This document shows, one piece after another, positions 2,001 to 21,116 of a stretch of 30,730 nucleotides of DNA (its first letter is position 1; every line of letters begins with the position of its first letter). The stretch lies in IMG/VR virus record IMGVR_UViG_3300025646_000209, positions 1-30,730 of that record; one strand, given 5' to 3'. Origin of the DNA: a virus. The notes beneath the pieces were generated by a model, which had not been told where the DNA came from, did not search any database, and worked only from the letters and a program-made list of their open reading frames with translations. The position numbers and the translations under genes were made by a program.

Positions 2001-2009
2001 TCTACACCA
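1985..2009 (+). terminator. Stem-loop spanning the sheath stop codon
   Basis: A perfect 9-bp inverted repeat (1985-1993 with 2001-2009, TGGTGTAGA/TCTACACCA) with a 7-nt loop contains the sheath TAA (1998-2000). No T-run follows, so it is not a standard intrinsic terminator. It could be a partial terminator, an RNA 3'-end stabiliser, or a way to separate expression of sheath and tube. A weak CTATT/AATAG repeat follows directly. Confidence 0.45.
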
Positions 2010-2044
2010 CTATTTAATAATAGAATTTACAGGAGAAATAAATT

Positions 2045-2596: not shown

Positions 2597-2609
2597 CACA
2601 GAGGTTTAA

Positions 2610-3320: not shown

Positions 3321-3328
3321 GAGTAAAA

Positions 3329-4153: not shown

Positions 4154-4328
4154 ATATTCTAAACAATTGTATGAACAAATATTTCTTATGAAACATTATG
4201 GCGGTTGGTCTTTTATCGAAGTTTACAATTTGCCCGTTGGATTAAGAAATTGGTTTTACCAAAGATTGGTTCAACAATATGAAGAAGAAAACAAAGCCGC
4301 CGAAAAGGCATCAAAGAAGACCCGATAA
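4134..4328 (+). CDS. Small gp51-like tail/baseplate assembly ORF, probably expressed by frameshift
   Basis: This short frame encodes a conserved-looking peptide containing 'MKHYGGWSFIEVYNLP' and 'LRNWFYQRLVQQYEEE', ending in a Lys-rich tail. Small proteins of this pattern follow the gp26 gene in T4-like phages and are usually annotated as baseplate hub assembly (gp51-like); I recall the pattern but cannot search it. Starts available in frame are an ATG at 4188 (46 residues) and a TTG at 4167, neither with a Shine-Dalgarno sequence, and an ATG at 4071 deep inside the upstream gene. The overlap ATG at 4150 is in another frame and stops after 13 codons. Lack of a start plus the T7 run favours expression as a C-terminal extension of the gp26-like protein. 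The stop codon sits inside the following terminator stem. Confidence 0.6.
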   Translation, partial: FFGLNNEYSKQLYEQIFLMKHYGGWSFIEVYNLPVGLRNWFYQRLVQQYEEENKAAEKASKKTR

Positions 4329-4343
4329 TAATCGGGTTTTTTT
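4321..4343 (+). terminator. Intrinsic terminator before the tape measure unit
   Basis: A perfect 6-bp stem CCCGAT/ATCGGG (4321-4326 with 4331-4336) with an AATA loop is followed by seven T (4337-4343). It overlaps the stop codon (4326-4328) of the gp51-like frame. No obvious promoter follows before the next gene, so it probably attenuates rather than fully stops transcription, lowering expression of the downstream tail genes relative to sheath and tube. Confidence 0.82.
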
Positions 4344-4378
4344 AATTAAACTACTTATTAATAAGCGAGGAACTACTA

Positions 4379-4747
4379 ATGGAACTAGACTTTACAAAAA
4401 AGAAATTATTAACCGAATCTTGGATGAGAGCATTTGCAGATTGGAACAAAACATTTCTACGTTATATGTATGGAGAAGATGTTACAATGACTGCTGATTT
4501 AAAGGCTCATCAAAGGCTCTCAGAGGACGATGAAGGCCCCAAACTAAAGTTTGTGATACGAGGAGAGGTTGAAGACGTTAAAGCCTATTCTCGAGCAATT
4601 ATGGCCGAAAAAGAATATCTTGATAATTTTATCAAGCATGGAAAAGACCATCCTCAATCTCAAAAAACAAAAGAGATGTTGGACCAAGCCGTTGGACACT
4701 TTGAACAAACAACGGGAATCACTTGGCCATTCAAAGACGAGGGATAA
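4379..4747 (+). CDS. Hypothetical protein upstream of the tape measure gene
   Basis: This 122-residue, mostly helical, charged protein is not one I recognise. Notable stretches are 'LTESWMRAFADWNKTFLRYMYG', a flexible acidic middle ('RLSEDDEGPKLKFVIRGEV'), and a helical second half with 'AYSRAIMAEKEYLDNFIKHG'. The ATG at 4379 has a GCGAGG ribosome site 8 nt upstream and comes just after the terminator. The stop is only 3 nt before the tape measure start, so the two are translationally linked. A small acidic helical protein next to a tape measure suggests a tail assembly or tape-measure-binding role, but this rests on position alone. Confidence 0.6.
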   Translation: MELDFTKKKLLTESWMRAFADWNKTFLRYMYGEDVTMTADLKAHQRLSEDDEGPKLKFVIRGEVEDVKAYSRAIMAEKEYLDNFIKHGKDHPQSQKTKEMLDQAVGHFEQTTGITWPFKDEG

Positions 4748-4750
4748 TAG

Positions 4751-7210: not shown

Positions 7211-7225
7211 TAAAGGAAAAATAAA

Positions 7226-7816
7226 ATGGGTGGTAGTCTTTTAAAAACTTTTGGCAATCAAACAGATCAACAGGTTCATGTCTATTCCTTTGCAAGAAAT
7301 AAAATATGGTCATTTACTGGTGACATTCAATCCTTTAGTGATAGTTATTCTGCAAATATAAACCAAGAAGCAGTTTATGGAAGAATTGATCAGATAAAAA
7401 CTTATTCCGGAACAACTCGAGAAATATCATTTAGTATCAAGATAGAGTCAGAAACACAAACATCTGATTTCTTTACACAAGTAAAACTTATGGCTTCAAC
7501 TATGTATCCTGTTTATGATACTGGTAATGTACTAATAGATAGACCAAACATTCTAAAAGCTCCTCCATTGTATGCAGTTAAATGTAGTCCATTACTTGTT
7601 GGAGGCTATGAAGTCCTCTCAGAAAGTGATATGTTGCCAGGGTTCTTTACTTCTTTTGGAATTGATTATAACACAACAGATGGTGTTGAGGTTGGAGCTG
7701 GTGAGAATGTTCCTAGAGAAATTACATTGAATTTTTCATTTTCTCCTCTGCATGATAGAATGGGTGGCTTCAACAACAATAATGGTCCAATGAGTGATAA
7801 AAGTTGGCCTTTCTAG
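7226..7816 (+). CDS. Baseplate / tail-tube junction-like structural protein
   Basis: This 196-residue, beta-rich protein lies between the tape measure and the gp53-like gene, where T4-like phages encode the proteins joining tube to baseplate (gp48, gp54). Segments such as 'TREISFSIKIESETQTSDFF', 'YAVKCSPLLVGGYEVLSE' and 'REITLNFSFSPLHDRMGG' look like the two-sheet fold shared by tube and tube-initiator proteins. The end 'PREITLNFSFSPLHD' parallels the closing strand of tube proteins ('MREISLSFKYDW'). I infer a tube initiator or junction role; no named family is certain. It has an AGGAAAA-type ribosome site and a 9-nt gap to the next gene. Confidence 0.5.
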   Translation: MGGSLLKTFGNQTDQQVHVYSFARNKIWSFTGDIQSFSDSYSANINQEAVYGRIDQIKTYSGTTREISFSIKIESETQTSDFFTQVKLMASTMYPVYDTGNVLIDRPNILKAPPLYAVKCSPLLVGGYEVLSESDMLPGFFTSFGIDYNTTDGVEVGAGENVPREITLNFSFSPLHDRMGGFNNNNGPMSDKSWPF

Positions 7817-7825
7817 GAGATAAGC

Positions 7826-8164
7826 ATGTCAAGATACAATTCAAGAAATAAAGTTATTAACGACACAGAAGAATACAGAACAGACGAGATATTTGAAGAT
7901 CGCGGAGTTCAACAGATAACTCAATATCAAACTCCTCAATTTAAAAGATTGACCGAGGTTGAGTACAATAGAGTTCCATTTCAAAGATATTATTGGAAAA
8001 ATGGAGATCGCTTTTGGAAGCTTGCAGCAAAGTTTTATGGAGACAAAACAAAATGGTGGGTTATTGCCGGATTTAACTTTATTCCAACAGAAGCGGAAGT
8101 TGAAGAGGGACAAGAGATAAGAATACCAACTAACCTTTCAATTGTAATGGGATTATTTACATGA
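7826..8164 (+). CDS. Baseplate wedge protein, T4 gp53-like with LysM-type domain
   Basis: This is a 112-residue protein with a charged N-terminal 50 residues and a C-terminal LysM-like domain. The core 'YYWKNGDRFWKLAAKFYGD' followed by 'KWWVIAGFN' and 'EGQEIRIP' has the LysM order: G-D-t-l-w-x-l-A-x-x-y-y-g, W-x-x-I-x-x-x-N, G-x-x-l-x-I-P. T4 gp53 and the small baseplate LysM proteins of other contractile tails have this architecture and staple wedge subunits together. It overlaps the next, hub-like gene by 4 nt (ATGA), consistent with coordinated synthesis of baseplate parts. Because it sits inside the tail block and has no signal peptide, a peptidoglycan-degrading role is unlikely. Confidence 0.75.
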   Translation: MSRYNSRNKVINDTEEYRTDEIFEDRGVQQITQYQTPQFKRLTEVEYNRVPFQRYYWKNGDRFWKLAAKFYGDKTKWWVIAGFNFIPTEAEVEEGQEIRIPTNLSIVMGLFT

Positions 8165-11100
8165 GTATTATACAGACGATCAGAGATACCATAGTAAAAG
8201 AACTTAAAACCAATGGAAAATGGTTACAAGTTTCAGCTGATGAAGCAGAAGATGCTTCTAGATACAGAAAAATACTTGATACTGAAGTTACTCCTGAAAT
8301 TTGGTATGGCGTTGCATCTGGTCAAAATGAAATATCTAATGACGACTTTAAAAAATACAAAGATTCAGATGGTGTTCCAATTGAATTTGAATATGATTAT
8401 TATGATTTTGATGGTGTATTCTTTGAAGGAGCCTCAATAGATTCAACGGATGTTGATTGGTTATTGGGTCATGGTGACGGTAAAGATAATAGAGTATTTA
8501 CTACTAAAGTTATTGAGGATTATGGAACAAATAATCCAATTACTTGGTACATTTGGGGAGTAAGTAGTAATACAAGTGGAGTCGTAACTACACTTGGCAT
8601 TATGGATATTCTTAAGACAAAATCATATGCTGAGAGCATTAATCCTGCTGGAATTGAGGGAAATGCTAAAGAATTAGAAATAATAGAAAACTTTTTAAAA
8701 GAAATTGGAAAACTAGAAACATCAAGACCAAGCAATGAATTTTTAAATTATTGGAATGATCCAACAATTTTAAACATTAAAAAGAGTTTTTTAGGTGCTG
8801 TAAGAGATTTGGCTAAAATCATAGACGGTGTTCAACCCGGGTTTTATTCTTTTGATACGTTTGTAAAAAAGATTTCAATTGCAACTTCTTTTATTTTAGA
8901 ATATGGTGGATTTAGTAGTTTAGCTAATTTAGAAAACGAACTTACATTAGATGAATCGGATATGTTGTTAAAAAATTACACAGATGGTAGAAATGAACAA
9001 ACATTGCTTTCTGAAAGTGTTTTGGGAACTAAATTTTCTCAAGGATTTGTTTCATTCAATGGAGCTCGTGTATGGGATGCTAGAAAAGTAGCTCATGCTA
9101 ATGGAGGACAAGAGATAAGAGCAACATCTAATACTAATTCACCAAGTCCATGGCCACAAGAAAAAAAATTGATCAAAAAACTTCCTTCTAGTCCAGACCC
9201 AAATGATCAGAAGATTATAGGATTTTTAATTGGTTTTGATAATTACAAATCAATAATACTTCAAAAAGGACAATATCAAATAAACTCTGATCCGTTGTTA
9301 ATATTATCTAATAAAGTATCAGGAAATGCAAAAAACGTTCTTACATATGATATTAGCGCTCCTTTATTTCGTGGAGGCTTTGATAGATTTAACTACAATG
9401 TTGAAGAAAAAATACTTGAGAAATATTACCAATTTGCAATTAATTTAAAAACCAATAAACTTACAAGGGTCACTGATCCGGTTACTAATAAATCATATTT
9501 TAATTTAACAAAAGAAATGGATAAACAAGCTTTTGAGTATTCTCAAAATGAACTGTCTCAAATTATTGTTGAAAATAAAGTAAATATTCTAAAAGGATTA
9601 TTGTTTGATAACTTAGAAGAATTTTTTGACTCCAATATTGATGATGATAATTTACTAAAAGAAATAGCAAAAAATCTTGCCAAACAAACCGGTTCTAACG
9701 CAAACCTTGGATACGAAGAAGATGAAATATCCAAAAAAGAAATTGCCGAAAGACAAAAACTATTAGAACAATGTGCCCTATTGTTAAATCTCAAAGGTCT
9801 TGCAACAAAATATGATCAAACCAATCAATCAGAGCTAGCTGTGAATAAAAAAATTCATGAATTTGGATATTTTGGCAATAGATTTTTAAGAGTGCAAAGC
9901 AGCAACAGCTCAAAAACACTTACTTCTTTATATTCTCAAAAAGCATCTGCTAAACCTTTTTTGGAAATCACACCAGTTCTTCAAGGCTTGTTGGTACCAA
10001 AGATTAAAATACAAAAGATATTGCATAGACCAGGAGTAATTGAAACAATCGATGTCCCATTCACGGGAATAACAACTGAGAGAGAATTTGATGGTGGTGG
10101 AAGCTTACAGCCAATCAATTATCAAGAAGCAATAAAAAACAGAACTATCTTTCGTGGTGGCGGTGTTGGGATAAAATCAATATCGTTTGACTTTGATGGA
10201 GAAACACCAGCTACGGCACAAAAATGGGTTCGCTCAACAATGTCTTTAAAATTTCAAGACTTTGGTGATCTTGTCGCACAAAGAGATACATTCATGACAG
10301 TTAGTACAAACCCATCAACAAAGCAACAAACAAAATTTAGATTTCTTGATTTAATTGTTAATTCAACATCAGACAATCTTGTTGAAGATGGTGTTGATGC
10401 TTTCTTTAGAGAGTTTTACAAACCAGTAGATTACAAGATAAAAATTGATGTTGGTTGGAATTATCAAGATACACCGGCAACTAGAAATCTTATCACTTCT
10501 CAAGGAGTCGACCCAGATGAATTTTTTGAAGCAATTGATAAACAAAACAAATCTTTTTTGTTCTCAGCATTAGATCATGATATTAACATTGCAGATGATG
10601 GAACGATTGATTTAAATATAAATTATTTTGGATATCCAGATGCTTTATTAAGCTCTTACAAGTTTAATGCATTGGTAACGCAACAACAAGAAAAAGAACT
10701 TAAGGATGAATTAGATAATTTAAGAGATCTTATAAAAGATGGAAAATGTACAAAATCTCAATTAGCAAAACTTACAGCAGCAATTGAACAAAGAAGACTT
10801 GAGATAACTAAACAATCTTCTAGATCGATTCAAGGAAGATTGGTTAAATATGGCTTATTAAGATCAGTTACAGTAACAGACCAATCACAGCTTAGAACCT
10901 TTAAGCAATCAGGAACCTTTACTCATGTTCCAACAATTGAAACTAGTTTGGATTCAGGATTTTCAGCAAGTGCAGGACAAACAAAAAAATTCTTTTTTCT
11001 TGGAGATTTGCTTTATGTCTTGATGGATTGTCTTTACGAACAAAATGGAACAAGAGTTCAAGGAACAGAAAATGTTTCCATTATCTTAACAGATTTTGAA

Positions 11101-12141
11101 TTTAATGAACACCTACCCTACAGTAGTGGTACCCCACCTTCTACAAAAACCGTTCAAGTTAATCTTGCGTCAATTCCAATATCTTTAGATTTCTTCAAAG
11201 AATGGTTTACAGAAGAAATATTGGCATCAGAAAGATACAATTATCCATTAATGGATTTTATATTGATTCTTGCAAATCGTTTGATGGGAGATATTTTAAC
11301 AGAAGTTTGTTATAACAAAGAACATGATAAAACACTTTTCTTCAGACAAGCTCAAATGTTTGGAAGTAAAGAACAAAACGATCAGCTAAAATTATTCACA
11401 AATAGAGGAAGCAATTTTTCAGCAAAATATGGAATTGTTAATTTAAATCACCCTTATGTTACTAGTGGAACTATTCCTCTTTCCTACACAGGAACAGGAG
11501 GTGCTCATGATATGTACACATTTGTTGCAATTTATCCAGATTCGAAACCTTTAACACATAAAGGAAAAGGAATCTACTCTGATGATTTAGATCAAGGAAT
11601 CTATCATTTTCATATTGGTGCAGCCTCAGGGTTAATGAAAAAGGTTAGTTTTAGCAAAACCAATATCACTTATCTCCGAGAATCCAGAATGATGAGGTAT
11701 CGAGGTCTTGGTGACTTTGCTCAACTATCAAATGTTTACAATGTTTCAATGGAGCTTTATGGTAACTTCTTATTCTTTCCGGGAATGCAAATATATGTTG
11801 ACCCATTTGGAATCGGTGGAGATGAATTTGGAAATCCTTCAAAAAAACTTATCGATAATGATGTAATGAATTATGCTAAACTAATGGGTATTGGTGGTTA
11901 TCACCTTATCACAAGTGTTAAGACTACAATAGGGGTTGAAGGGTTTAAAACCTCAATTGAAGCTAGATTCTTCTTTTCAGGTGATGAAGATGGAAATGAT
12001 GATACTTTAGATGGATTGATCACTAAGCTACAAGAGCCTAATTCACTAGCCAATGCTGGTGTTGGCGATGGAACTGATTCAGCAGCTTGTGGAGAAATTA
12101 TCTCTGTATTTGAAACCAATACTATCGAGGGCAACAATTAA
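8161..12141 (+). CDS. Very large baseplate hub-like virion structural protein
   Basis: This 1326-residue protein lies in the baseplate block right after the gp53-like gene. Its C-terminal part (about 1200-1290) has 'FFPGMQIYVDPFGIGG', then 'LMGIGGYHLITSVKTTIG' and 'FKTSIEARFFFSGDED'. This resembles the closing beta domain of gp27/XkdQ-type hub proteins ('lgigGyy.Vtkv.h.i....f.T.leA'). A basic/acidic coiled coil lies near residues 843-890 ('QQQEKELKDELDNLRDL'). The middle has tube-like beta segments ('KPVDYKIKIDVGWNYQD'). The N-terminal 500 residues are unlike anything I recognise. At this length it is far larger than T4 gp27 (391), so it may fuse several baseplate functions. No lysozyme or peptidase motif was seen. 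Structural role is likely; the exact baseplate position is inference. Confidence 0.55.
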   Translation: MSIIQTIRDTIVKELKTNGKWLQVSADEAEDASRYRKILDTEVTPEIWYGVASGQNEISNDDFKKYKDSDGVPIEFEYDYYDFDGVFFEGASIDSTDVDWLLGHGDGKDNRVFTTKVIEDYGTNNPITWYIWGVSSNTSGVVTTLGIMDILKTKSYAESINPAGIEGNAKELEIIENFLKEIGKLETSRPSNEFLNYWNDPTILNIKKSFLGAVRDLAKIIDGVQPGFYSFDTFVKKISIATSFILEYGGFSSLANLENELTLDESDMLLKNYTDGRNEQTLLSESVLGTKFSQGFVSFNGARVWDARKVAHANGGQEIRATSNTNSPSPWPQEKKLIKKLPSSPDPNDQKIIGFLIGFDNYKSIILQKGQYQINSDPLLILSNKVSGNAKNVLTYDISAPLFRGGFDRFNYNVEEKILEKYYQFAINLKTNKLTRVTDPVTNKSYFNLTKEMDKQAFEYSQNELSQIIVENKVNILKGLLFDNLEEFFDSNIDDDNLLKEIAKNLAKQTGSNANLGYEEDEISKKEIAERQKLLEQCALLLNLKGLATKYDQTNQSELAVNKKIHEFGYFGNRFLRVQSSNSSKTLTSLYSQKASAKPFLEITPVLQGLLVPKIKIQKILHRPGVIETIDVPFTGITTEREFDGGGSLQPINYQEAIKNRTIFRGGGVGIKSISFDFDGETPATAQKWVRSTMSLKFQDFGDLVAQRDTFMTVSTNPSTKQQTKFRFLDLIVNSTSDNLVEDGVDAFFREFYKPVDYKIKIDVGWNYQDTPATRNLITSQGVDPDEFFEAIDKQNKSFLFSALDHDINIADDGTIDLNINYFGYPDALLSSYKFNALVTQQQEKELKDELDNLRDLIKDGKCTKSQLAKLTAAIEQRRLEITKQSSRSIQGRLVKYGLLRSVTVTDQSQLRTFKQSGTFTHVPTIETSLDSGFSASAGQTKKFFFLGDLLYVLMDCLYEQNGTRVQGTENVSIILTDFEFNEHLPYSSGTPPSTKTVQVNLASIPISLDFFKEWFTEEILASERYNYPLMDFILILANRLMGDILTEVCYNKEHDKTLFFRQAQMFGSKEQNDQLKLFTNRGSNFSAKYGIVNLNHPYVTSGTIPLSYTGTGGAHDMYTFVAIYPDSKPLTHKGKGIYSDDLDQGIYHFHIGAASGLMKKVSFSKTNITYLRESRMMRYRGLGDFAQLSNVYNVSMELYGNFLFFPGMQIYVDPFGIGGDEFGNPSKKLIDNDVMNYAKLMGIGGYHLITSVKTTIGVEGFKTSIEARFFFSGDEDGNDDTLDGLITKLQEPNSLANAGVGDGTDSAACGEIISVFETNTIEGNN

Positions 12142-13325
12142 TGAAATACAATGGAAAAAACACAACAAGACCATTGAGGTATTTGTTTCAAGAAAGATCA
12201 AAATGGTTTGGACACTTTAGGAACGAAGAAGGAGCATTTGAAAAAGAAAATGCTTATTTTGAACCTAATCTGTTCGAGAAAGTGTTTTATCAAAGAGTTA
12301 ATAGCAGATATGAAACTATCATCCCTAACGATGATGTAATAAAAACAATATCTGATAACGGTAAACAAATTCAGGGCATCAATTTTGCTGTTGATGCTTT
12401 CAAACAATTTAAAGTACAAATGGCTTGGATGGCAAAAGAAAAATCTCAAGATCCGTACTTATCTTCGCCTATAGCTTACTACTCATATGTATCTCCTAGT
12501 GTTGAATATGAAAACTATGCAAATAACTTATTACAAGATTTTCATGAATATATTAAAACAAACAAACTCCATAATAGTATAACACAATTTAAACATTATG
12601 TCAAGTCTTTTTTATCATTTTTATCACAAAAAGGTCCAAATTTTCCTTTAACAATGACAGGATGGCAGAAATCTGTTAATTCAAACATTTTTACATCTGG
12701 ATTGGCTTTTTCTATTGCTCCTTTAAAGTGTGGAGACGATACACAAAAAGAAGAATTTGTTTCTTCTCCATTATTTTCTGATTATGTTAATCTTGCAAAT
12801 GAATTTGGATTCTTTGTTTTGTCAAATTGTCCATGGATCATGGTTGCTGGTACAAGATCAGATGGAATAAAAGAGTTTTCATCAAAATACAATCAAAATA
12901 CTGAACAACAAATATATACAGCTTCTTTTAATAAAACATATATAAATGATATAAATAATATAAATAATATATTGTATAAATATTATAATATATATATAAA
13001 TTTATTTCCTTATAATAAAGAATTATATTATAATGGTAATATAACAAAACAAAATAATGTTTTAAAATTACAATTAAATAAATCTGATTATTCTGATTTA
13101 TATTGGTTGAAGATCTATAATCAGATAAGAAATATCGAAGAAAACATGATGTTTAATAAAGCAGAGTTCGACGTAATAGAAAAAAAATTAACTTTTTTTG
13201 AAAAAAAACTTGACAAAGATCAAGCCTTAAGTTATATTAATGAACAATATCGCTTTTTTTATGTTTACAAACCAGGAGGTATCAACGATTTCTTGAGAAA
13301 GCGTAATCAACAACCGGAGGACTAA
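12141..13325 (+). CDS. Hypothetical protein, last gene of the tail block
   Basis: This 394-residue protein is not one I recognise. It starts on the A of the previous stop (TAATG) and its own stop overlaps the polymerase ATG by one base, so it is in the same transcription unit as the baseplate genes and probably a structural or assembly protein. The sequence is Tyr/Phe/Asn/Lys-rich with 'KCGDDTQKEEF' and 'VLSNCPWIMVAGTRSDGIKE' as the most distinctive segments. Residues about 265-320 are encoded by extremely AT-rich DNA and are nearly all Asn, Tyr, Ile and Lys. The 3' end also carries a consensus promoter (13209-13237) for the replication genes downstream. No signal peptide or membrane segment is seen. 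Confidence 0.55.
   Translation: MKYNGKNTTRPLRYLFQERSKWFGHFRNEEGAFEKENAYFEPNLFEKVFYQRVNSRYETIIPNDDVIKTISDNGKQIQGINFAVDAFKQFKVQMAWMAKEKSQDPYLSSPIAYYSYVSPSVEYENYANNLLQDFHEYIKTNKLHNSITQFKHYVKSFLSFLSQKGPNFPLTMTGWQKSVNSNIFTSGLAFSIAPLKCGDDTQKEEFVSSPLFSDYVNLANEFGFFVLSNCPWIMVAGTRSDGIKEFSSKYNQNTEQQIYTASFNKTYINDINNINNILYKYYNIYINLFPYNKELYYNGNITKQNNVLKLQLNKSDYSDLYWLKIYNQIRNIEENMMFNKAEFDVIEKKLTFFEKKLDKDQALSYINEQYRFFYVYKPGGINDFLRKRNQQPED
12931..13080 (+). other. Extreme AT-rich patch inside a coding gene
   Basis: Counting directly, 12 of these 150 bases are G or C (8%), far below the flanking parts of the same gene. The frame stays open and codes for Asn/Tyr/Ile-rich sequence with near-repeats of 'NNIN' and 'YIN'. 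It may be a slippage-generated expansion of a surface loop or a recently acquired low-complexity insert. Confidence 0.7.
13209..13237 (+). promoter_or_regulatory. Sigma70-type promoter for the polymerase-tubulin-PspA unit
   Basis: A perfect TTGACA -35 (13209-13214), a 17-bp spacer and a TATATT -10 (13232-13237) lie inside the 3' end of the preceding structural gene, about 88 nt before the polymerase ATG. Expected start is near 13244. It is the most upstream consensus promoter I found and marks the switch from tail genes to replication genes. Confidence 0.65.
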
Positions 13326-14500
13326 TGATATTTCAAATCATTGATGATAAAAAAGAATGCCGAGGCTATTTTGCTGATGGAAAATTAAGAATAAGAGAAC
13401 TACCTGAGACTTTAACAGCAACTTGGGATTGGTCAGAATTGATTGGTGACAGAGACGTTACCTTAGCTAAGATAATCATGCAGGGTCAATCAATAAATGA
13501 AGCTTGCCCAGAACATTTGAAAGATAGATTGGAAGCAAGAGAGAAGAAAATCAAGGCTCACCTCAAATCTTTCATTAAATCTAAGGTAAACTTAAACGAT
13601 ATCTGTTTTTATGACCTCGTTCCAACCAAAGATATTCAGCACTACTACAACCTACTTAACGAGATTACCCAATGGACAATCGAAAACAATCCAAAACCAA
13701 AAAACTACCGATTAATGCATAATATCAATCAAATGTGTAAAGAAATAGCTCAACAACCAATCAGAGTTGACAAGGAAAAATGGAAATGGCATGCCCAACG
13801 AGATCAAAAAGCAATGCACCTTTCAAACAGCTTTTGGGATAAACCTTTAAGAGTTATTTACAACCCTTGGGGAACCATTACAGGGCGCTTGGGACTTCAA
13901 GAAGGGTCTTTCCCTATCCTCAACCTTAAGAACACCATTAAAGACATTGTCGTTCCCAAATGGGATGTGTTTGTTGAACTTGATTTCAACGGAGCAGAAT
14001 TAAGAACGCTTTTATCCCTTTCGGGACATAACCAACCATCGGAGGACATTCATGATTTCAATCAAACTAGCATTTTTAACAATAATCTTTCTCGAGATGA
14101 TGCAAAGAAGCAGATTTTTGCATGGCTCTACAATCCGACTTCAACAGCAATTGAAACTGATTTCTATGACAAGAGAAAGGTATTGGAGAGACACTATGCG
14201 GAGGGAGTTGTATCTACTCCATTTGGAAGAACAATACCTTCAGATGATTTCCACTCGCTTAACTACCTTATCCAATCGACCTCCTCAGATAATTTCCTTG
14301 ATAGAGCATCCGCGATACAAAAATACTGTAAAGGACTCAAAACCAACGTAGCATTTCTTGTTCACGATTCAATTATCTTGGATGTGCCTCTTTCCGAGAA
14401 ACAAAGAATAAAAGAAATTGTTGAAATCTTTGAAAACACAAAACTTGGAAAGTTCAAAGTAAATGTAAATGTCGGAAGAAATTTAGGAGAATTAAAATGA
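13325..14500 (+). CDS. Compact family A DNA polymerase (polymerase domain only)
   Basis: The C-terminal two thirds carry the family A polymerase motifs in order. TGRL is at 186-189. Motif A is 'LDFNGAELR' with metal-binding D220. Motif B has the exact family spacing R257-x3-K261-x3-F265-x3-Y269, with N in place of the usual following Gly. Motif C is 'VHDS' with H347-D348, where Ser replaces the common Glu. Phe at 265 favours dNTPs over ddNTPs by analogy with E. coli Pol I F762. At 391 residues it is much shorter than ordinary phage Pol A enzymes: the 185 residues before TGRL show no DxE or other 3'-5' exonuclease motif and can hold only a thumb-like part. Catalytic Asp pair and fingers are intact, so it should be active, but proofreading would have to come from elsewhere. 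It overlaps the tubulin-like gene by 4 nt. Confidence 0.85.
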   Translation: MIFQIIDDKKECRGYFADGKLRIRELPETLTATWDWSELIGDRDVTLAKIIMQGQSINEACPEHLKDRLEAREKKIKAHLKSFIKSKVNLNDICFYDLVPTKDIQHYYNLLNEITQWTIENNPKPKNYRLMHNINQMCKEIAQQPIRVDKEKWKWHAQRDQKAMHLSNSFWDKPLRVIYNPWGTITGRLGLQEGSFPILNLKNTIKDIVVPKWDVFVELDFNGAELRTLLSLSGHNQPSEDIHDFNQTSIFNNNLSRDDAKKQIFAWLYNPTSTAIETDFYDKRKVLERHYAEGVVSTPFGRTIPSDDFHSLNYLIQSTSSDNFLDRASAIQKYCKGLKTNVAFLVHDSIILDVPLSEKQRIKEIVEIFENTKLGKFKVNVNVGRNLGELK

Positions 14501-15306
14501 TAACAATTGGACTTGGCAATGCAGGCATAAACATATGCCGTAAGCTTTCAAATTTAGGCAAATACAAGACGATAGAGTTAGACGAGGGCAAAGGGTTACC
14601 AAAGTGTGAAACACACGAAGAATACGAATCTAGCGTCCCTAAACTAACAAAAACTCTTAAGCTTGGAAACGACCAAGACATTTGGTTTATCCTCTGCGGA
14701 GCTTCAAAGGTCTCTGGAGCAACCTTGGCAATTTTAGAACAAATAAAAGATCGCGAGGTCAAAGTAATGTATATTGTTCCTGATCCTTTCTTCTTATCAA
14801 AAACGCAAAAATTACAACATAATGTTACATTTGGCGTTCTTCAAGAATATGCAAGATCAGGATTAATAAATTCTATTTGGTTAATGGACAATAAATTAAT
14901 TTCTAACATTGTCGGAGAAGGAGCGCTTGGATCTTATTATGATAATGCAAATGCTGCCATTGCAAACTTTCTTGCAAATTATAACTGGTTTAAAAATTCA
15001 ACACCAATTATGGGAAATTTACATGAACCAAAAGACATATCAAGAATTAGAACCGTGTCAATCGGAGAACTAGAAAAAAATGAAGAAAATTTATATTTTT
15101 TACTTGACAACCAAACAGAATCATGTTATTATTATAGTATAAGTTCTGAAACAAAAGAAAAAGATAAACAACTTCTTCAAAAAATAAGATCTTATTTAGA
15201 ATCAAAACAACAAACAAGCTTTGGAATTTGGGAAAACGGATCTCAACATTCGTTTTTCTATTCCATTAAATTTACTCACTACATTCAACAATCGGAGGAA
15301 ACATGA
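14497..15306 (+). CDS. Divergent FtsZ/tubulin-superfamily protein
   Basis: This 269-residue protein follows the FtsZ/tubulin plan. The T1-like loop is 'IGLGNAGINICRKL' (G5-x-G7-N8-x-G10-x-N12). A tubulin-signature position reads 'CGASKVSGATLAIL' (68-75, compare GGGTGSGA), ending in the conserved S-G-A. Then comes a strand and Pro-Phe, 'VMYIVPDPFF', like the 'VvtlPF' of FtsZ, a helix, and 'INSIWLMDNKLI', matching 'vD.lIvIpNdkL'. A helix with 'ANAAIANFLANY' aligns with H8, and 'NLHEPKDISRIRTVS' sits where the T7 loop 'NvDfaDvrtv' occurs. The last 90 residues are beta/alpha as in the activation domain. The signature glycines are partly lost (Lys and Val at 71-72), so GTP binding is uncertain. 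It is shorter than FtsZ cores and PhuZ (about 315). It is coupled by ATGA overlaps to the polymerase and the PspA-like gene. Confidence 0.62.
   Translation: MITIGLGNAGINICRKLSNLGKYKTIELDEGKGLPKCETHEEYESSVPKLTKTLKLGNDQDIWFILCGASKVSGATLAILEQIKDREVKVMYIVPDPFFLSKTQKLQHNVTFGVLQEYARSGLINSIWLMDNKLISNIVGEGALGSYYDNANAAIANFLANYNWFKNSTPIMGNLHEPKDISRIRTVSIGELEKNEENLYFLLDNQTESCYYYSISSETKEKDKQLLQKIRSYLESKQQTSFGIWENGSQHSFFYSIKFTHYIQQSEET
15104..15132 (+). promoter_or_regulatory. Internal promoter ahead of the PspA-like gene
   Basis: TTGACA (15104-15109), a 17-bp spacer and TATTAT (15127-15132) with the extended -10 TGT lie in the 3' third of the tubulin-like gene. The CATGTTAT core is identical to the promoters at 16000, 16416 and 16562. 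It would let the PspA-like protein be made in excess over polymerase and tubulin-like protein. Confidence 0.6.
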
Positions 15307-15992
15307 ATTTATTTAATAGGATAGCTAACCTTATATCAGGGTTTTTTAATTCCTTATTAGGAGGAATAGAGAAATCAAATCCAGAACTAGTATATGAACA
15401 AGCAATTGATAACAAAATAACTCAACATAACAAATTAAGAAAAGCAGTAGCAAGCTTAACTATGATGAGGAACAAAACACTAAACTCTCTAGAAGAAGAA
15501 AGATCCAAATTAGAAGAAATAAATCTTTACCTAGAATCTTCTTTATCTGAGAATGATGATGAAAGTTCTGTAATGCTTTTAGAACAAAAAAATGAAACTG
15601 AAGACAGACTTTTAATTTTAGAAAAAGAATTTTCTATAATTGACGAACAAACCAATGATGCAATGCAATCTCTTGCATCTCATAGAGAAGAAATAGACAA
15701 GCTAAAAAGAGAAAAATCATTTAAACTAGCACAACACAAAGCTGCTGAATTGAAAAATCAAGCATTTGAACAAATAAATGGCATTTCCGAAGATGCTGAT
15801 TCTAAAGCAATAGAAAATATAAGAGAAGAAATAGATTCTGAAGTTGCAAAAGCAAACTTAAATTCTGAAATGAACAAAAATTCTTATTCTTTTAAGATGA
15901 AAGCGTTAAAAACAAACTCTTCAAAACTAAAAGCACAAAAACAACTTGAAGCTTTAAAACAACAAAAAATAAAAATTGCAAAAAATTTATAA
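15303..15992 (+). CDS. PspA/Vipp1 (IM30)-family coiled-coil protein
   Basis: This 229-residue protein has the PspA/IM30 layout. A short N-terminal amphipathic helix ('MNLFNRIANLISGFFNSLL', like helix 0 of PspA that inserts into membranes) is followed by 'SNPELVYEQAIDNKI', which parallels 'dP..ll.qai.em'. A long helical hairpin follows, with 'HNKLRKAVASLTMMRNKTL' and a second coiled coil rich in Glu/Lys. Length matches PspA (about 222). PspA and Vipp1 belong with ESCRT-III and form rods or rings that stabilise or remodel the inner membrane. The phage copy begins inside the stop of the tubulin-like gene, and a promoter lies 170 nt upstream. A membrane-protective or remodelling role in the infected cell is likely; a direct partnership with the tubulin-like protein is inference. 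Confidence 0.72.
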   Translation: MNLFNRIANLISGFFNSLLGGIEKSNPELVYEQAIDNKITQHNKLRKAVASLTMMRNKTLNSLEEERSKLEEINLYLESSLSENDDESSVMLLEQKNETEDRLLILEKEFSIIDEQTNDAMQSLASHREEIDKLKREKSFKLAQHKAAELKNQAFEQINGISEDADSKAIENIREEIDSEVAKANLNSEMNKNSYSFKMKALKTNSSKLKAQKQLEALKQQKIKIAKNL

Positions 15993-15999
15993 AAATTAC

Positions 16000-16028
16000 T
16001 TGACAAATAAAACAAAACATGTTATATT
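16000..16028 (+). promoter_or_regulatory. Strong sigma70-type promoter, extended -10
   Basis: TTGACA (16000-16005), 17-bp spacer, TATATT (16023-16028) preceded by TGT. It starts 7 nt after the PspA-like stop and drives the small gene at 16057 with a leader of about 20 nt that contains its ribosome site. Confidence 0.78.
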
Positions 16029-16056
16029 ATAAACATCAACAACAAACGGAGGAAAA

Positions 16057-16398
16057 ATGAAATATAAATTTGATTACAACGAATTTCAAAAAAACTATTC
16101 GGGAGAATCCACTGATAATTTTCTTGAATACCTGCAAAAAACAGATTTTAATTACTTTACATGCCAAGAACAAGATAGTTACTTTGATTATGTAGAACAA
16201 AAGACCATAGAATCTTATGTAGATTATAAAAGAGGCTATTCTAAACAACTCTTGATAATTCAAGAAAAAGAAACAAAAGAATACTATGGCATTGAATATA
16301 CAGTCTACAATGATGGTGAAACTTATTCTGGCTCGTGGGAAAAATATAATAGAGTGAAAACTAGACCTGTCGTTTACAAGTACAAAGTAGCCGCATAA
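16057..16398 (+). CDS. Hypothetical small protein
   Basis: This 113-residue, Tyr/Asp/Glu-rich soluble protein is not one I recognise. Its N-terminal half is likely helical with many Tyr/Phe ('FDYNEFQKNYSGE', 'DSYFDYVEQKTIESYV'). The C-terminal half ('EYYGIEYTVYNDGETYSG', 'TRPVVYKYKVAA') looks like beta strands. It has a consensus ribosome site (CGGAGG) 7 nt before ATG and its own strong promoter, so it is probably abundant early in infection. Such small, strongly promoted phage genes often encode host-takeover factors; that is inference from position and promoter only. No signal peptide, membrane segment or metal-binding motif is seen. Confidence 0.65.
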   Translation: MKYKFDYNEFQKNYSGESTDNFLEYLQKTDFNYFTCQEQDSYFDYVEQKTIESYVDYKRGYSKQLLIIQEKETKEYYGIEYTVYNDGETYSGSWEKYNRVKTRPVVYKYKVAA

Positions 16399-16415
16399 AA
16401 AATAAAAAAAAATAC

Positions 16416-16444
16416 TTGACAAATAAAACAAAACATGTTATATT
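16416..16444 (+). promoter_or_regulatory. Strong sigma70-type promoter, no gene directly downstream
   Basis: TTGACA (16416-16421), 17-bp spacer, TATATT (16439-16444) with extended -10 TGT. From the -35 to the -10 it is identical to the promoter at 16000. The next open frame with a ribosome site is 230 nt away and has its own promoter, so this one seems to make a short untranslated RNA or a long leader. Confidence 0.72.
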
Positions 16445-16450
16445 AATAGT

Positions 16451-16560
16451 ATAACAAACAACAAAACAAAACTTCATTAAGTTTGCTCTTTTCCTCCCAT
16501 TTTTGTGGGAGGACCCTTTACATCGCTGAAAAATAAAAATTAAAAAAAATAAAAAAAATA
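16451..16560 (+). ncRNA. Candidate small RNA with two hairpins
   Basis: Between two strong promoters there is no usable ORF but two clean stem-loops: AAACTT/AAGTTT (16469-16474 with 16479-16484, 4-nt loop) and CCTCCCA/TGGGAGG (16493-16499 with 16506-16512, 6-nt loop). The CCTCC arm is complementary to the phage's own GGAGG ribosome sites. No clear U-run terminator follows, only an A-rich tract, so the 3' end is unknown. Confidence 0.4.
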
Positions 16561-16561
16561 C

Positions 16562-16590
16562 TTGACACAATGTTAAAAACATGTTATATT
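16562..16590 (+). promoter_or_regulatory. Strong sigma70-type promoter, extended -10
   Basis: TTGACA (16562-16567), 17-bp spacer, TATATT (16585-16590) with TGT before the -10. It drives the 87-residue gene at 16675 through a leader of about 78 nt and may also read through to the SSB gene. Confidence 0.75.
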
Positions 16591-16601
16591 AATAACACGA
16601 T

Positions 16602-16621
16602 GGTTGATTGAGAGTTCAACC
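16602..16621 (+). promoter_or_regulatory. 5' leader hairpin
   Basis: GGTTGA (16602-16607) pairs with TCAACC (16616-16621) around an 8-nt loop, beginning about 5 nt from the expected transcript start. A hairpin at the very 5' end usually protects mRNA from decay, which would fit an abundant product. Confidence 0.45.
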
Positions 16622-16674
16622 GAAATTAAAAACGCTCAAAACAATTAAGACATTTCAATTTATAAGGAGGATAT

Positions 16675-16938
16675 ATGTCTACAAATTCATTCACATTCAA
16701 CGCTAACGTTTACACCGGAAGCTTCACAAAAAGAGATGGTTCTACACGAACAATGCGTTTCCTAAAGCAAAATGCTGTTCCACAATCTCTTCAAGGATCT
16801 GGACAAAAGCCACGTTATCTTGACACAAAACACGAAGTTGTATTCGATCTTGATCAAAATGGCTGGAGAGTGTTTAATCACAATAGAGTTGTAGAAACAC
16901 CAACATTTGAAAGACAAGAAGTAACTATCAACGGGTAA
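16675..16938 (+). CDS. Small basic beta-rich protein, possibly SH3-fold
   Basis: This 87-residue protein contains 'FTKRDGSTRTMRFLKQN', a pattern of two strands joined by 'KRDGS.RTMRF' that recurs in small phage proteins annotated as SH3 beta-barrel fold. It continues 'KHEVVFDLDQNGWRVFNHN'. Basic and aromatic residues suggest nucleic acid binding, but that is not shown. It has a strong AAGGAGG site 7 nt before ATG, its own strong promoter and a hairpin leader, so high expression is likely. It lies just upstream of the SSB gene, among replication genes. The fold call is tentative. Confidence 0.6.
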   Translation: MSTNSFTFNANVYTGSFTKRDGSTRTMRFLKQNAVPQSLQGSGQKPRYLDTKHEVVFDLDQNGWRVFNHNRVVETPTFERQEVTING

Positions 16939-17152: not shown

Positions 17153-17908
17153 ATGGCATTAGATCTAGAAGCAATGCGAGCTAAATTGGACGCATCAAAA
17201 AATGGTAACTCTGCAAAACAGCAAGATACCAAATGGAAACCAGAACAAGGAGACCAAACAATTAGAATTCTTCCAACAAAAGATGGAGATCCGTTCAAGG
17301 AATATCACTTTCATTATAATGTTGGTAAAAATCCTGGGATTCTTTGTCCTAAGAAGAACTTTAATGAAGAATGTCCAATCTGTGATTTCGCGTCAAAGCT
17401 TTGGAAAGAAGGAGTTGAAAACAATGATGAAGTTGCTAAGCGAGAAGCTAAGAAATTATTTGTCAGAAAACGTTATTATTCTCCAATCTTGGTTAGAGGA
17501 CAAGAATCAGAAGGCGTTAAAATCTGGGCTTACGGTAAGCAAGCTTATGAAACATTATTGGGGTATGTTTTAGATCCTGATTATGGTGATATTACAGACG
17601 CTGAAGCTGGAACTGACATAGTGTTAAATTATGATGTTCCTGGAACTCCTGGTTCGTTTCCAAAAACCACTCTTAAGCCTCGCCGTCGTCCATCCGTTCT
17701 TTGTGATGATGATGTTGCTGATTGCGAAGCTCTGCTTAACTCGGTACCAGACATTGGTGCTTTGTTTGAGCGAAAAACAACGGCTGATGTTCAAGCTATT
17801 TTGAACGAAGCTCTTTCTACTGACGGCTCTGAAGGTTCAACCTCCGAGACCTATAAGTATGGTGAGCAAGATGCTGTTGATGCTGCCTTCGATAAATTGG
17901 GAGCTTAA
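17153..17908 (+). CDS. Single-stranded DNA-binding protein, T4 gp32-like
   Basis: This 251-residue protein matches the gp32 plan. A basic N-terminal region for cooperative binding is followed by a zinc site, H52 or H54 with C65-x8-C74-x2-C77 ('CPKKNFNEECPICDF'). The spacing is close to T4's H64, C77, C87, C90. After it come aromatic and basic OB-fold strands ('KLFVRKRYYSPILVRG', 'VKIWAYGKQAYETL') and a Ser/Glu/Asp-rich acidic tail that in gp32 recruits other replication proteins. It coats ssDNA at the fork and in recombination intermediates and would work with the UvsX-like recombinase and helicase encoded nearby. It is shorter than T4 gp32 (301). The start has a GGAG site 8 nt upstream behind a long non-coding leader. 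Confidence 0.9.
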   Translation: MALDLEAMRAKLDASKNGNSAKQQDTKWKPEQGDQTIRILPTKDGDPFKEYHFHYNVGKNPGILCPKKNFNEECPICDFASKLWKEGVENNDEVAKREAKKLFVRKRYYSPILVRGQESEGVKIWAYGKQAYETLLGYVLDPDYGDITDAEAGTDIVLNYDVPGTPGSFPKTTLKPRRRPSVLCDDDVADCEALLNSVPDIGALFERKTTADVQAILNEALSTDGSEGSTSETYKYGEQDAVDAAFDKLGA

Positions 17909-18191: not shown

Positions 18192-18232
18192 ATGCAGGGT
18201 TAGGGAGTCTCCTGCGTTGAGAAATGACTCCC
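18192..18232 (+). promoter_or_regulatory. H-type RNA pseudoknot upstream of the GHKL ATPase gene
   Basis: Stem 1 is GCAGG (18194-18198) with CCTGC (18211-18215), extendable by a T-G and an A-T pair. Stem 2 is GGGAGTC (18203-18209) with GACTCCC (18226-18232). The arms interleave, giving a classical H-type pseudoknot with loops of 4 nt (GTTA), 1 nt and 8-10 nt. It ends 15 nt before the AAGGAG ribosome site. A hairpin-only reading would use stem 2 alone. A translational operator or mRNA-stability element is the likely role. Confidence 0.6.
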
Positions 18233-18259
18233 ATTTTACTATCAACAAGGAGAGATACT

Positions 18260-19966
18260 ATGCCAAAATATTTTAGTACACCAGACCCAGCAAGACAATT
18301 AACAGAAATAATAAACAGAATAGGAAACCAAACACCAATAGAAATGATTATCAGGGAAGCAGCAATAAACGGTCACGATGCAAATAAAAGATTTTCTCGA
18401 GAAGTAAGAGGGGTTGTACATTTTACAAGAGACTGGGAATATCCTAAGAAACTATCTATTATAAACTATAATGGAGAGTATTTTGGAGAAAAAAACTTAG
18501 AAGCATTTATGACAGTTGCATATACTAATAATTTAAATCCAGAGCAAACTTCAGAAAACTTTGGTATTGGAGCAAAAACTTCATATCTTTTGCATGGAGC
18601 TATGTTATACAGAACTAAAAAAGCGGGAGAAGAACTAGGAACTTATTTTATTATAGAGAAAGACAAAGAAACAGGAAACTATGGTTTAAGAGATATTTGG
18701 TGCCCTTATAATGAACATTGGACAAATACTCCGGTCTGTGATAAATTTTCTCAATATTTAACTATTGATACTGAAGGTACTGAAATGGTCCTACTGGGAA
18801 ATTCAGATGATCAAGACACTTTCCTTCAACTAGACCACAGCTCCAGTATTTCCGGAAAATCAGAAGGTACAGGTTGGTCAATCTCTAACTATCTTAGTAT
18901 GAGACTTTTCAAAGATATTGGCACTACTTTTAAAGTAGAAATTCAAAATACAACCACAAATGAAAAAATTAGAGATAACAAGATTAAACCTTTGTTAGAT
19001 TATTTATCTTCTTGTAAAAGATATGGAAACTTTCCCTTACAAGGTAATAACATTCCAGAAGGAACTATTGCTCACTATGGACTTGTCCCTCAAGGAGATA
19101 AAATAATGACTTTTAGCTCTGGTTTTGTTTCTTTCGCTTATAAGAATGAAAATTATTTAAACCAAAAGATACATCCAGCTGCTAAAGCCCAACAGTTGAT
19201 TAGTTGCGGAATTCATACAAAACCAAATAGTTGGTTTATTGTTTTTGAGTTACCAGAAACAGAAAACATAAATATTGAAATGCATAGAAAATCTCTCGAT
19301 GGTATCGAGAAGGAACTTTATTATAGTGCATTTGCACAGAATCTTCCGGAAGAAATATTAGATTGGTTGGAAAACGAAGTTAGCGCAAAAGATGATACAA
19401 GAGAAATTGATGATTGGCTCAAAGATAGATTTAAATTTAAAATAGAGCAAGACACATGTGGTAAAGAAAAGGGCGATAAGGTTTGTAATGATTCAGAAAA
19501 AACTATTCCTTTAACTCCTGAAGAGCAACAAAAAACAGCTAGAATTTCAAAATTTCAAAAAGAAAATAAAAGCACAATACCACCTAAAAAAATACAAAAC
19601 TTTGACATCCCAAACCATAGAAGAGTATCTCATGGAGAAACTTTACCACTCGTTCAATTCAATTTTGATGCCTACACGATAACTGTAAATGAAGATAATC
19701 CTTTGTGGAAATACAGAGTTCAGCAAATTTCTAAGGATTTCAATACAGGTATTGAATCAATAATAGAAACTGAAGTATATAGAAGAATCTTAGACTCAGC
19801 TATTGGGGCAATTTTTGAAATTCAAGAAGTATATCCAAAGGAAACAATACATAATAAAAAAGACAAGTGGAGTCCGGAAATCTTATCTAGCATTTGGACC
19901 AAAGATCAGGTCAATAATTCTAACAGATATTTAAAGAAAAAATATTCTAATTTTGTAAAAAAATAA
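18260..19966 (+). CDS. GHKL-fold ATPase, rIIA-like
   Basis: This 568-residue protein has an N-terminal Bergerat (GHKL) ATP-binding pattern: 'IIREAAINGHDA' (E33, N37, D40) is the N-box and 'ENFGIGAKTSYL' (G102-x-G104) the glycine box and lid. T4 rIIA and its phage relatives are GHKL proteins of this sort. The usual DxGxG box is altered: at the expected place the sequence is 'IINYNGEYFG', with Asn (about 69) instead of Asp, so ATP binding may differ. The C-terminal 180 residues are charged and end Lys-rich. I start it at the ATG at 18260, which has AAGGAG 7 nt upstream; an in-frame ATG 12 codons earlier lies at the pseudoknot's end and has no ribosome site. No rIIB-like partner is seen nearby. 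The rIIA link is by fold and size, so function is uncertain. Confidence 0.7.
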   Translation: MPKYFSTPDPARQLTEIINRIGNQTPIEMIIREAAINGHDANKRFSREVRGVVHFTRDWEYPKKLSIINYNGEYFGEKNLEAFMTVAYTNNLNPEQTSENFGIGAKTSYLLHGAMLYRTKKAGEELGTYFIIEKDKETGNYGLRDIWCPYNEHWTNTPVCDKFSQYLTIDTEGTEMVLLGNSDDQDTFLQLDHSSSISGKSEGTGWSISNYLSMRLFKDIGTTFKVEIQNTTTNEKIRDNKIKPLLDYLSSCKRYGNFPLQGNNIPEGTIAHYGLVPQGDKIMTFSSGFVSFAYKNENYLNQKIHPAAKAQQLISCGIHTKPNSWFIVFELPETENINIEMHRKSLDGIEKELYYSAFAQNLPEEILDWLENEVSAKDDTREIDDWLKDRFKFKIEQDTCGKEKGDKVCNDSEKTIPLTPEEQQKTARISKFQKENKSTIPPKKIQNFDIPNHRRVSHGETLPLVQFNFDAYTITVNEDNPLWKYRVQQISKDFNTGIESIIETEVYRRILDSAIGAIFEIQEVYPKETIHNKKDKWSPEILSSIWTKDQVNNSNRYLKKKYSNFVKK

Positions 19967-19994: not shown

Positions 19995-21116
19995 ATGGGA
20001 AAAGTAATACAAATGGCAACACAAAAAGCAGGAAAAATCAATATAGCAGACTTAAAAAAGTCAATGAATAAATCAATGGGAATTGAGGCAGCACATGACC
20101 TAAGAGAAGATAATCCAACTGAAGTTAAAGATTGGATTCCAACAGGTTCAAGATGGCTCGACTCTATTATTTGTAAAGGAAAAATGGGAGGCATTCCCGT
20201 TGGAAAGATAACAGAAATTGCTGGACTATCATCTGTCGGTAAGTCTTATCTTGCTGTTCAAATAGCAGCTCAAGCACAAAAACAAGGAAAGTTTGTGGTT
20301 TATTATGATGCAGAATCAGCGATAGATCCTGTTTTTCTTTCAGATGCTGGAATAGACATGGATAATAACTTTCTTTATGTTCAAGCAGTTTCAGTTGAAA
20401 TAGTTTTAAAAGCAATCGAAGATATGATGAACCAATACGGAGACCAACAACAATTTGTTTTTATTTGGGATTCAATTGCAGCAACACCATCAGATAAAGA
20501 CTTAGAAGGCGATTTCAATCCTCAATCTTCAATGGCCGTTAAGCCAAGAATCTTTGCTAAAGCATTTCCAAAACTAACAATTCCTTTAGCAAATGGACAA
20601 CACACTCTTATTCTTATAAATCAATTAAAAACAAACATCACAAGCAATATAGCTGAGGCTTTAACAACACCTTACATAGCACCTGGTGGTAAAGCAATAG
20701 AGTACTTCTGCTCACTTCGTATTTGGCTCACAGGTCGTAAATCAAAGCAATCTTTTGTTCTTGATGAATCAGGAAGACGAGTTGGATCTGAGGTTAAAAC
20801 AAAGATAGTTAAATCTCGCTTTGGAACCCAAGATAGAATTTGCGTTTTTCAAATCCGTTGGGGAGATAATGTTGGGATCATGGATGAAGAATCATGGCTT
20901 GAGGTAATAAAACAATCATCTTCTTATAAAAACGCTGGTGGTTGGTGTGTCCTGGAGCACAAAGGAAAAGAACATAAATTCCGAGCTAAAGATTGGATGG
21001 ATAAACTAAAAGATAAAGAATTTAAAGAAATAGTTTCTGAAATAATGGATGAAGAATTAATACATAAATTTGAGTCATCTGGCTCAAACATTGTTCCAGA
21101 CGACATAGACGATTAA
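19995..21116 (+). CDS. uvsX: UvsX/RecA-family recombinase
   Basis: This 373-residue recombinase has the RecA core: Walker A 'GLSSVGKS' (77-84), Walker B 'FVFIWD' with D159 followed by 'SIAATPSDKDLEGDF', the loop with 'INQLKTNI', and 'PGGKAIEYFCSLRIWL', which matches the conserved 'GG.AlkfyaS.Rl.i' of RecA/UvsX. Size fits T4 UvsX (391). It forms filaments on ssDNA covered by the gp32-like SSB and starts recombination-dependent replication and repair. The N-terminal 'AGKINIADLKKSMNKSMG' may be the filament-interface helix. The C-terminus is acidic ('IVPDDIDD'), as in RecA proteins. The ATG has an AAGGAG site 9 nt upstream, 28 nt after the GHKL gene, and a strong terminator follows, so it ends this operon. 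Confidence 0.93.
   Translation: MGKVIQMATQKAGKINIADLKKSMNKSMGIEAAHDLREDNPTEVKDWIPTGSRWLDSIICKGKMGGIPVGKITEIAGLSSVGKSYLAVQIAAQAQKQGKFVVYYDAESAIDPVFLSDAGIDMDNNFLYVQAVSVEIVLKAIEDMMNQYGDQQQFVFIWDSIAATPSDKDLEGDFNPQSSMAVKPRIFAKAFPKLTIPLANGQHTLILINQLKTNITSNIAEALTTPYIAPGGKAIEYFCSLRIWLTGRKSKQSFVLDESGRRVGSEVKTKIVKSRFGTQDRICVFQIRWGDNVGIMDEESWLEVIKQSSSYKNAGGWCVLEHKGKEHKFRAKDWMDKLKDKEFKEIVSEIMDEELIHKFESSGSNIVPDDIDD

Follow-up and report, generated by a model that had tools for sequence, protein, structure and literature searches.

A predicted minimal tubulin/FtsZ-fold protein is encoded beside a family-A DNA polymerase in a lineage of uncultured T4-like phages

The window analysed here is a single virus record of 30,730 bases (IMG/VR record IMGVR_UViG_3300025646_000209), in which a 269-residue protein, termed TUB (14497..15306, plus strand, as are all genes and promoters given below), is encoded directly behind POL, the 391-residue catalytic part of a family-A DNA polymerase (13325..14500; Pfam DNA_pol_A, 5.5e-12), and directly ahead of a 229-residue protein of the PspA/IM30 family (15303..15992). 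According to its AlphaFold2 model, TUB is a minimal, diverged and previously unlabelled protein of the tubulin/FtsZ superfamily, and the conserved unit in related loci is POL-TUB, not TUB-PspA. With a probability of about 40%, TUB would act as a scaffold that binds GTP and organises the site of phage replication, the PspA-like protein being swapped-in cargo. The original prediction had placed TUB and the PspA-like protein in an operon with the polymerase and had interpreted the two as a combined tubulin and ESCRT-III-type module. Its gene structure was confirmed, with ATGA overlaps of 4 nt coupling the two open reading frames (ORFs) to the polymerase and to each other (POL/TUB at 14497-14500; TUB/PspA at 15303-15306). 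Both are real genes under purifying selection, as evident from the ratios of nonsynonymous to synonymous substitution rates (dN/dS) of 0.17 for TUB and 0.21 for the PspA-like protein between the window and a related locus, L022.

As a single sequence, TUB matched the Pfam Tubulin profile below threshold (E = 0.075; best of 18 relatives, 0.0029), and in five related records of 186-204 kb the profile PF00091 retrieved nothing, though it matched in 13 of 14 control genomes. Relatives of TUB collected from IMG/VR scans range from 100% down to about 30% identity. An AlphaFold2 model computed from 83 of them, replacing an earlier, poor model from eight sequences (predicted local distance difference test, pLDDT, 55), reached a pLDDT of 94.9 and a predicted template modelling score of 0.92. 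Foldseek searches with this model returned the PDB entries of TubZ (4ei7, 1.1e-10), CetZ (4b45, 2.1e-10) and FtsZ (1w59, 3.1e-10), and all 50 PDB matches listed belonged to the tubulin superfamily (TMq 0.59-0.74). In BFVD, PhuZ-like proteins were matched and, at 3.9e-11, an FtsZ-like protein from an uncultured phage of the Caudovirales. The model contains the N-terminal GTPase domain, the core helix H7 and the C-terminal domain of the tubulin/FtsZ fold, and the tubulin-like nature that had been proposed for the 269-residue protein was thus borne out by structure prediction and fold search. The chain hardly extends beyond the final strand of the C-terminal domain, which leaves no room for an FtsZ C-terminal peptide or a PhuZ-type tail. 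A TrkA/Rossmann assignment, indicated by a weak Pfam TrkA_N match, was ruled out by the model and the Foldseek results.

The predicted nucleotide site is retained in part. Alignment of TUB with Escherichia coli FtsZ by hhalign spanned 164 columns across the whole GTPase domain, weakly (E = 0.068, one sequence), and the residue mapping given here derives from this weak sequence-profile alignment rather than from coordinates. It pairs N132 of TUB with N165 of FtsZ and N152 with N186, the aromatic Y148 lying four residues before N152. Glycines G5, G7, G10 and G68 as well as N132 were invariant in all 83 sequences, N152 was kept in 81 and an aromatic residue at position 148 in 79; we take the T1 glycines and positions N132, 148 and N152 to correspond to the guanine contacts of tubulin and FtsZ. 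The T4 signature GGGTG[ST]G is degenerate and reads C-G-[SA]-[GS]-K-x-[SA]-G, only G68 being invariant. The T7 loop motif NxDxx[DE] was not found, with no invariant acid in residues 163-185 (H7-S7 segment, 167-183), and helix H8 is absent from the model, which makes canonical GTP hydrolysis across subunits unlikely. Four further residues, E41, Q116, R120 and Q264, were invariant in the same 83 sequences.

The linkage of TUB to the polymerase was analysed from both sides. When loci were picked by POL alone, TUB was found downstream in all 69 informative ones, i.e., those with enough sequence beyond POL; a further four break off no more than 281 bases after it. Conversely, POL was present in the same locus for 143 distinct TUB genes, 79 of which overlap it by 1-29 nt, and the conserved order is POL-TUB-(cargo)-single-strand DNA-binding protein (SSB, gp32-like)-UvsX. 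All 32 aligned POL relatives matched Pfam DNA_pol_A and share the residues read as motifs A, B and C (D220/N222/E225, R257/K261/Y269 and H347/D348). The original prediction had noted the coupling to the polymerase in the window, and this stands; it had missed that the POL-TUB linkage is conserved and that a promoter is predicted within TUB. Of the wider POL-TUB gaps examined, four (L004, L006, L007 and L011) hold endonuclease genes, three GIY-YIG and one HNH, inserted independently at exactly this junction, as expected for homing elements near conserved genes. In the Microcystis phage Mel-JY01 (L125), the POL homologue lies at 15703-16929 (annotated as hypothetical; 1.8e-12), a family-B polymerase is encoded elsewhere in the genome, and the SSB-UvsX-exonuclease-helicase-ribonucleotide reductase order is the same as in the window, TUB being missing. 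The 428-residue gene between POL and SSB of this phage does not encode a tubulin; its product matches a family of S-adenosylmethionine lyases.

The relationship of the 229-residue protein to PspA/Vipp1 was likewise upheld. It matched PF04012 above the cut-off and over nearly the full length (E = 1.6e-9; 38.1 bits compared with a cut-off of 33.9; profile positions 1-218 of 220), phmmer against the PDB returned Vipp1/PspA chains at about 0.003, and its N-terminal amphipathic helix (residues 2-19) has the top hydrophobic moment of all 211 windows of 18 residues. In L022, where TUB is 83% identical to that of the window, a 66% identical PspA relative (PF04012, 5.1e-15; 56.1 bits) occupies the same slot. 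However, in a set of 140 distinct TUB genes whose locus also contains SSB, the PspA-like gene is limited to two close lineages, the clade of the window and L022, and PF04012 detected it in one of 27 related records, compared with a match in 12 of 14 control genomes. The gap between TUB and SSB is shorter than 250 nt in 45 of the 140 loci, and elsewhere the slot holds other genes. As PspA is rare and the slot is otherwise near-empty or differently filled, the TUB-PspA pairing is incidental. The postulated tubulin and ESCRT-III-type module was consequently not sustained: the outcome named in advance as speaking against it, absence of the pairing from all related phages, nearly applies, in that the pairing is kept in L022 and absent from the other TUB loci. 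Examples of other occupants are a glutamine synthetase-like gene directly behind TUB in L027 (4852-5880; Pfam Gln-synt_C, 1.3e-20) and, in the cargo region of L008 (8053-9606), a gene for a 517-residue protein with a GHKL/HSP90-like ATPase domain (4.3e-15). PspA relatives were detected neither in cultured phages by tblastn nor in GTDB genomes by a pattern scan, which reaches close relatives only.

A scan for sigma70-type promoters revealed near-perfect TTGACA-N17-TATNNT sites at 13210 and 15104. The first (13210..13238; scan score 11/12) lies in the 3' end of the gene preceding POL, 115 nt upstream of POL. The second (15104..15132; 11/12) is a predicted extended -10 promoter, TTGACA-N17-TATTAT with TG before the -10 element, and is embedded in TUB codons 203-212. 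Among 93 TUB genes sharing less than 75% amino acid identity, 66 score 10/12 or better at this position, compared with 0-7 in ten other windows. In a synonymous-codon shuffle test, constraint on TUB peaked at z of about 21 at codons 200-203; elsewhere in the gene (outside codons 188-218) the median was near 1 and the maximum 8.1, and the maxima for SSB, UvsX and POL were 6-9. Codon choice follows the site: Asp204 is encoded by GAC and GAT at a ratio of 64:3, compared with 421:783 elsewhere, and Leu203 by CTT in 66 of 86 cases, compared with about a fifth elsewhere. Upstream of POL, a site of at least 10/12 was found within 200 nt in 86 of 110 loci and in five of 110 for a control window, and codons 349-367 of the gene before POL showed synonymous constraint (z about 9). 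The simplest reading of these predictions is that POL-TUB forms one early transcription unit starting from the putative 13210 promoter, and the cargo and SSB genes a unit starting from the putative 15104 promoter. A further predicted promoter (16000..16028) follows the PspA-like gene and precedes a 113-residue ORF (16057-16398); over a stretch of 61 bases, its region shares 77% identity with that of the promoter inside TUB. In total, eight near-identical TTGACA-N17-TATNNT sites were found on the plus strand of the window (13210, 15104, 16000, 16416, 16562, 22702, 27721 and 27968), most of them with TG before the -10 element and an upstream A/T tract, forming a recurring phage promoter unit.

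For the favoured scaffold function, we propose the following course, drawn from conserved residues and gene order. TUB would bind guanine nucleotide, since it retains the T1 glycines and the Asn-aromatic-Asn contacts to the base; and since the T7/H8 region is remodelled, it may assemble or change conformation in a GTP-dependent manner without tubulin-type, hydrolysis-driven turnover, hydrolysis being slow or absent. The resulting scaffold could gather or position the phage polymerase and the replication site in the cell. Phage tubulin PhuZ provides a precedent for positioning DNA, and its catalytic mutant D190A polymerises with GTP into static filaments (PMC4244570), so that a non-hydrolysing tubulin can still serve as a scaffold. 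The PspA-like protein is probably membrane-protecting cargo; most likely, it would stabilise the host inner membrane during infection or block a membrane-depolarising abortive defence, without being an obligatory partner of TUB. A PspA homologue of Salmonella phage SeF3a has been discussed as acting against abortive infection (PMC9409062), and host PspA restrains a type II CBASS (cyclic oligonucleotide-based antiphage signalling system) cyclase (PMC11153139); by analogy, a phage PspA could act in defence besides membrane protection. In a more far-reaching and somewhat more tentative form, the TUB family would be a core replication gene throughout a large uncultured lineage of T4-like phages, whose product, with the polymerase, makes up a GTP-gated, non-hydrolysing replication-factory scaffold and whose coding sequence also serves as promoter for the replication operon that follows.

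Several points weigh against a scaffold function. Cyanophage Mel-JY01, which is cultured, encodes a diverged homologue of POL at the corresponding place but no TUB, implying that in at least one relative POL can do without TUB. In L031 (8001-8803) and L049 (1858-2679), an apparent frameshift or stop divides TUB into two ORFs, reflecting either sequencing error or decay. The synteny could partly reflect the embedded promoter instead of a shared function, and the promoters themselves are sequence predictions. Finally, the degeneration of T7 and the missing C-terminal tail speak against a dynamic spindle of the PhuZ type.

Among the alternatives, it is unlikely that TUB is an accessory subunit of the small, exonuclease-less polymerase, sensing guanine nucleotide or acting structurally and not forming filaments. 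The constant association of the two genes, often with an overlap of 4-13 nt, the size of POL of only about 391 residues and the failure to find a gp45-type clamp in the five records of 186-204 kb, with T4 as positive control, would all agree with such a role. The clamp search used one family model, however, which could miss diverged clamps, and we know of no polymerase subunit with a tubulin fold.

It is rather unlikely that TUB is an early antagonist of host division, i.e., a protein imitating FtsZ that has a nucleotide pocket, lacks a working T7 face and blocks division during phage replication by capping or poisoning host FtsZ filaments. Phages often inhibit FtsZ, and both the early promoter context and the apparent retention of the nucleotide-side polymerisation face next to a remodelled T7/H8 face would suit a capping protein. 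At about 13% identity to FtsZ, co-assembly is nevertheless doubtful, and inhibitors of this kind tend to be small and variable accessory genes; TUB, by contrast, belongs to the core and is coupled to the polymerase throughout the relatives sampled.

That TUB merely keeps its place by position, its own role being unrelated and the gene order frozen by the promoter of the SSB unit in its 3' end and by its start overlapping POL, is improbable. The embedded promoter is indeed the strongest synonymous constraint in TUB, but strong constraint also acts on the protein outside the promoter (E41, Q116, R120, N132 and Q264 being invariant in 83 sequences), and promoters can move to intergenic space, for which many loci offer extra downstream gaps. 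A TUB filament and a PspA polymer acting jointly on the membrane, as the 4-nt overlap and co-transcription in the window and the same arrangement in L022 might suggest, is very improbable given that PspA is missing from all but one of 27 records searched with PF04012 as well as from the other TUB loci, and that other genes fill its slot.

The POL-TUB pair is placed between late tail and baseplate genes on one side and the replication genes for SSB, UvsX, exonuclease and helicase on the other. Positions 15-8164 hold contractile-tail genes (sheath, two tube-like proteins, baseplate hub and gp25-like wedge). Between the gp25-like gene and POL, two conserved proteins of 1326 (8161-12141) and 394 residues (12141..13325) are encoded without a family match; their position suggests that they are of baseplate wedge type. 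The 394-residue protein, whose gene carries the upstream promoter and precedes POL in most loci by synteny, gave no match in Pfam or PHROGs. Downstream lie a WYL_2-like gene, the gp32-like SSB, UvsX, a 5'-3' exonuclease, a DnaB-like helicase, ribonucleotide reductase, a GroES-like gene and thymidylate synthase. The WYL_2-like gene (87 residues, 16675..16938; Pfam 1.8e-5, just below the cut-off; phrog_1086, 4.6e-8) is frequent between TUB and SSB, while SSB (17153..17908; Pfam gp32, 9.2e-18; PHROG SSB, 3.5e-28) and the UvsX-like recombinase (19995..21116; Pfam RecA, 6.6e-37; PHROG UvsX, 6.8e-61) are fixed downstream neighbours. A 580-residue ORF (18224-19966) lies between SSB and UvsX; as a similar gene is located between TUB and the WYL_2-like gene in L023, it appears to be mobile cargo.

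TUB relatives are abundant in IMG/VR, where at least 597 were found among the 600 pattern matches listed, and a T4-type Gp23 capsid protein was present in all nine long records of the lineage tested. No TUB relative was detected in cultured phages by tblastn, in GTDB genomes by a pattern scan reaching close relatives only, or in phages RM378 (far-T4) and Mel-JY01. TUB is not named in Pfam or PHROGs, and no publication on it was found in a literature search that reached few subscription journals or preprints. We conclude that TUB represents a new family of a known superfamily, found in a phage lineage and a gene context that are both new. Phage tubulins have, to our knowledge, been described chiefly for jumbo phages of the phiKZ type and for TubZ-type partition systems; the present one, a minimal and diverged tubulin-fold protein, occurs next to the polymerase almost universally across a large uncultured T4-like lineage. 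If TUB organises replication, phages would draw on cytoskeletal help for replicating much more widely than has been assumed, and some 265 residues lacking the T7 hydrolysis loop would suffice for a tubulin fold. The predicted promoter embedded in TUB offers a clear case of overlapping protein and regulatory code.

Compared with known systems, the PspA-like protein resembles that of Salmonella Kuttervirus SeF3a (phrog_1203, PMC9409062) in being a sporadic PspA homologue in a lytic phage, but the latter was not retrieved by tblastn or PHROGs and belongs to another phage group and position. PhuZ of phiKZ-like jumbo phages shares with TUB a phage-encoded tubulin/FtsZ fold, the BFVD matches including PhuZ of Edwardsiella phage pEt-SU. 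Beyond T1, no sequence relationship between them was found, hhalign aligning only 18 columns; moreover, TUB is shorter (269 compared with 327 residues), has neither the long C-terminal tail nor a recognisable T7 acid, and occurs in a different phage lineage with a T4-type Gp23 capsid and a family-A polymerase. TubZ, the partition tubulin of plasmids and phages, is the closest PDB fold by E-value among the matches listed (4ei7), but TUB is much shorter and stands in a replication-gene context; no TubR-type partner was recognised among its neighbours (POL, SSB and variable cargo), although no specific search for one was made. With FtsZ and CetZ, TUB shares the fold including the strands of the C-terminal domain, the T1 glycines and the guanine-contact Asn residues, and it differs from them in its degenerate T4 signature, in lacking the T7 motif, H8 and the conserved C-terminal peptide, and in scoring below the Pfam cut-off. 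Like TUB, FtsZl1 and FtsZl2 are diverged FtsZ-tubulin families, recognised from remote similarity and gene context (Makarova and Koonin 2010, PMC2875224); these are cellular, with FtsZl1 in operons with vWA, OmpA-like and GTPase genes, whereas TUB has no such neighbours, is viral and is tied to a polymerase.

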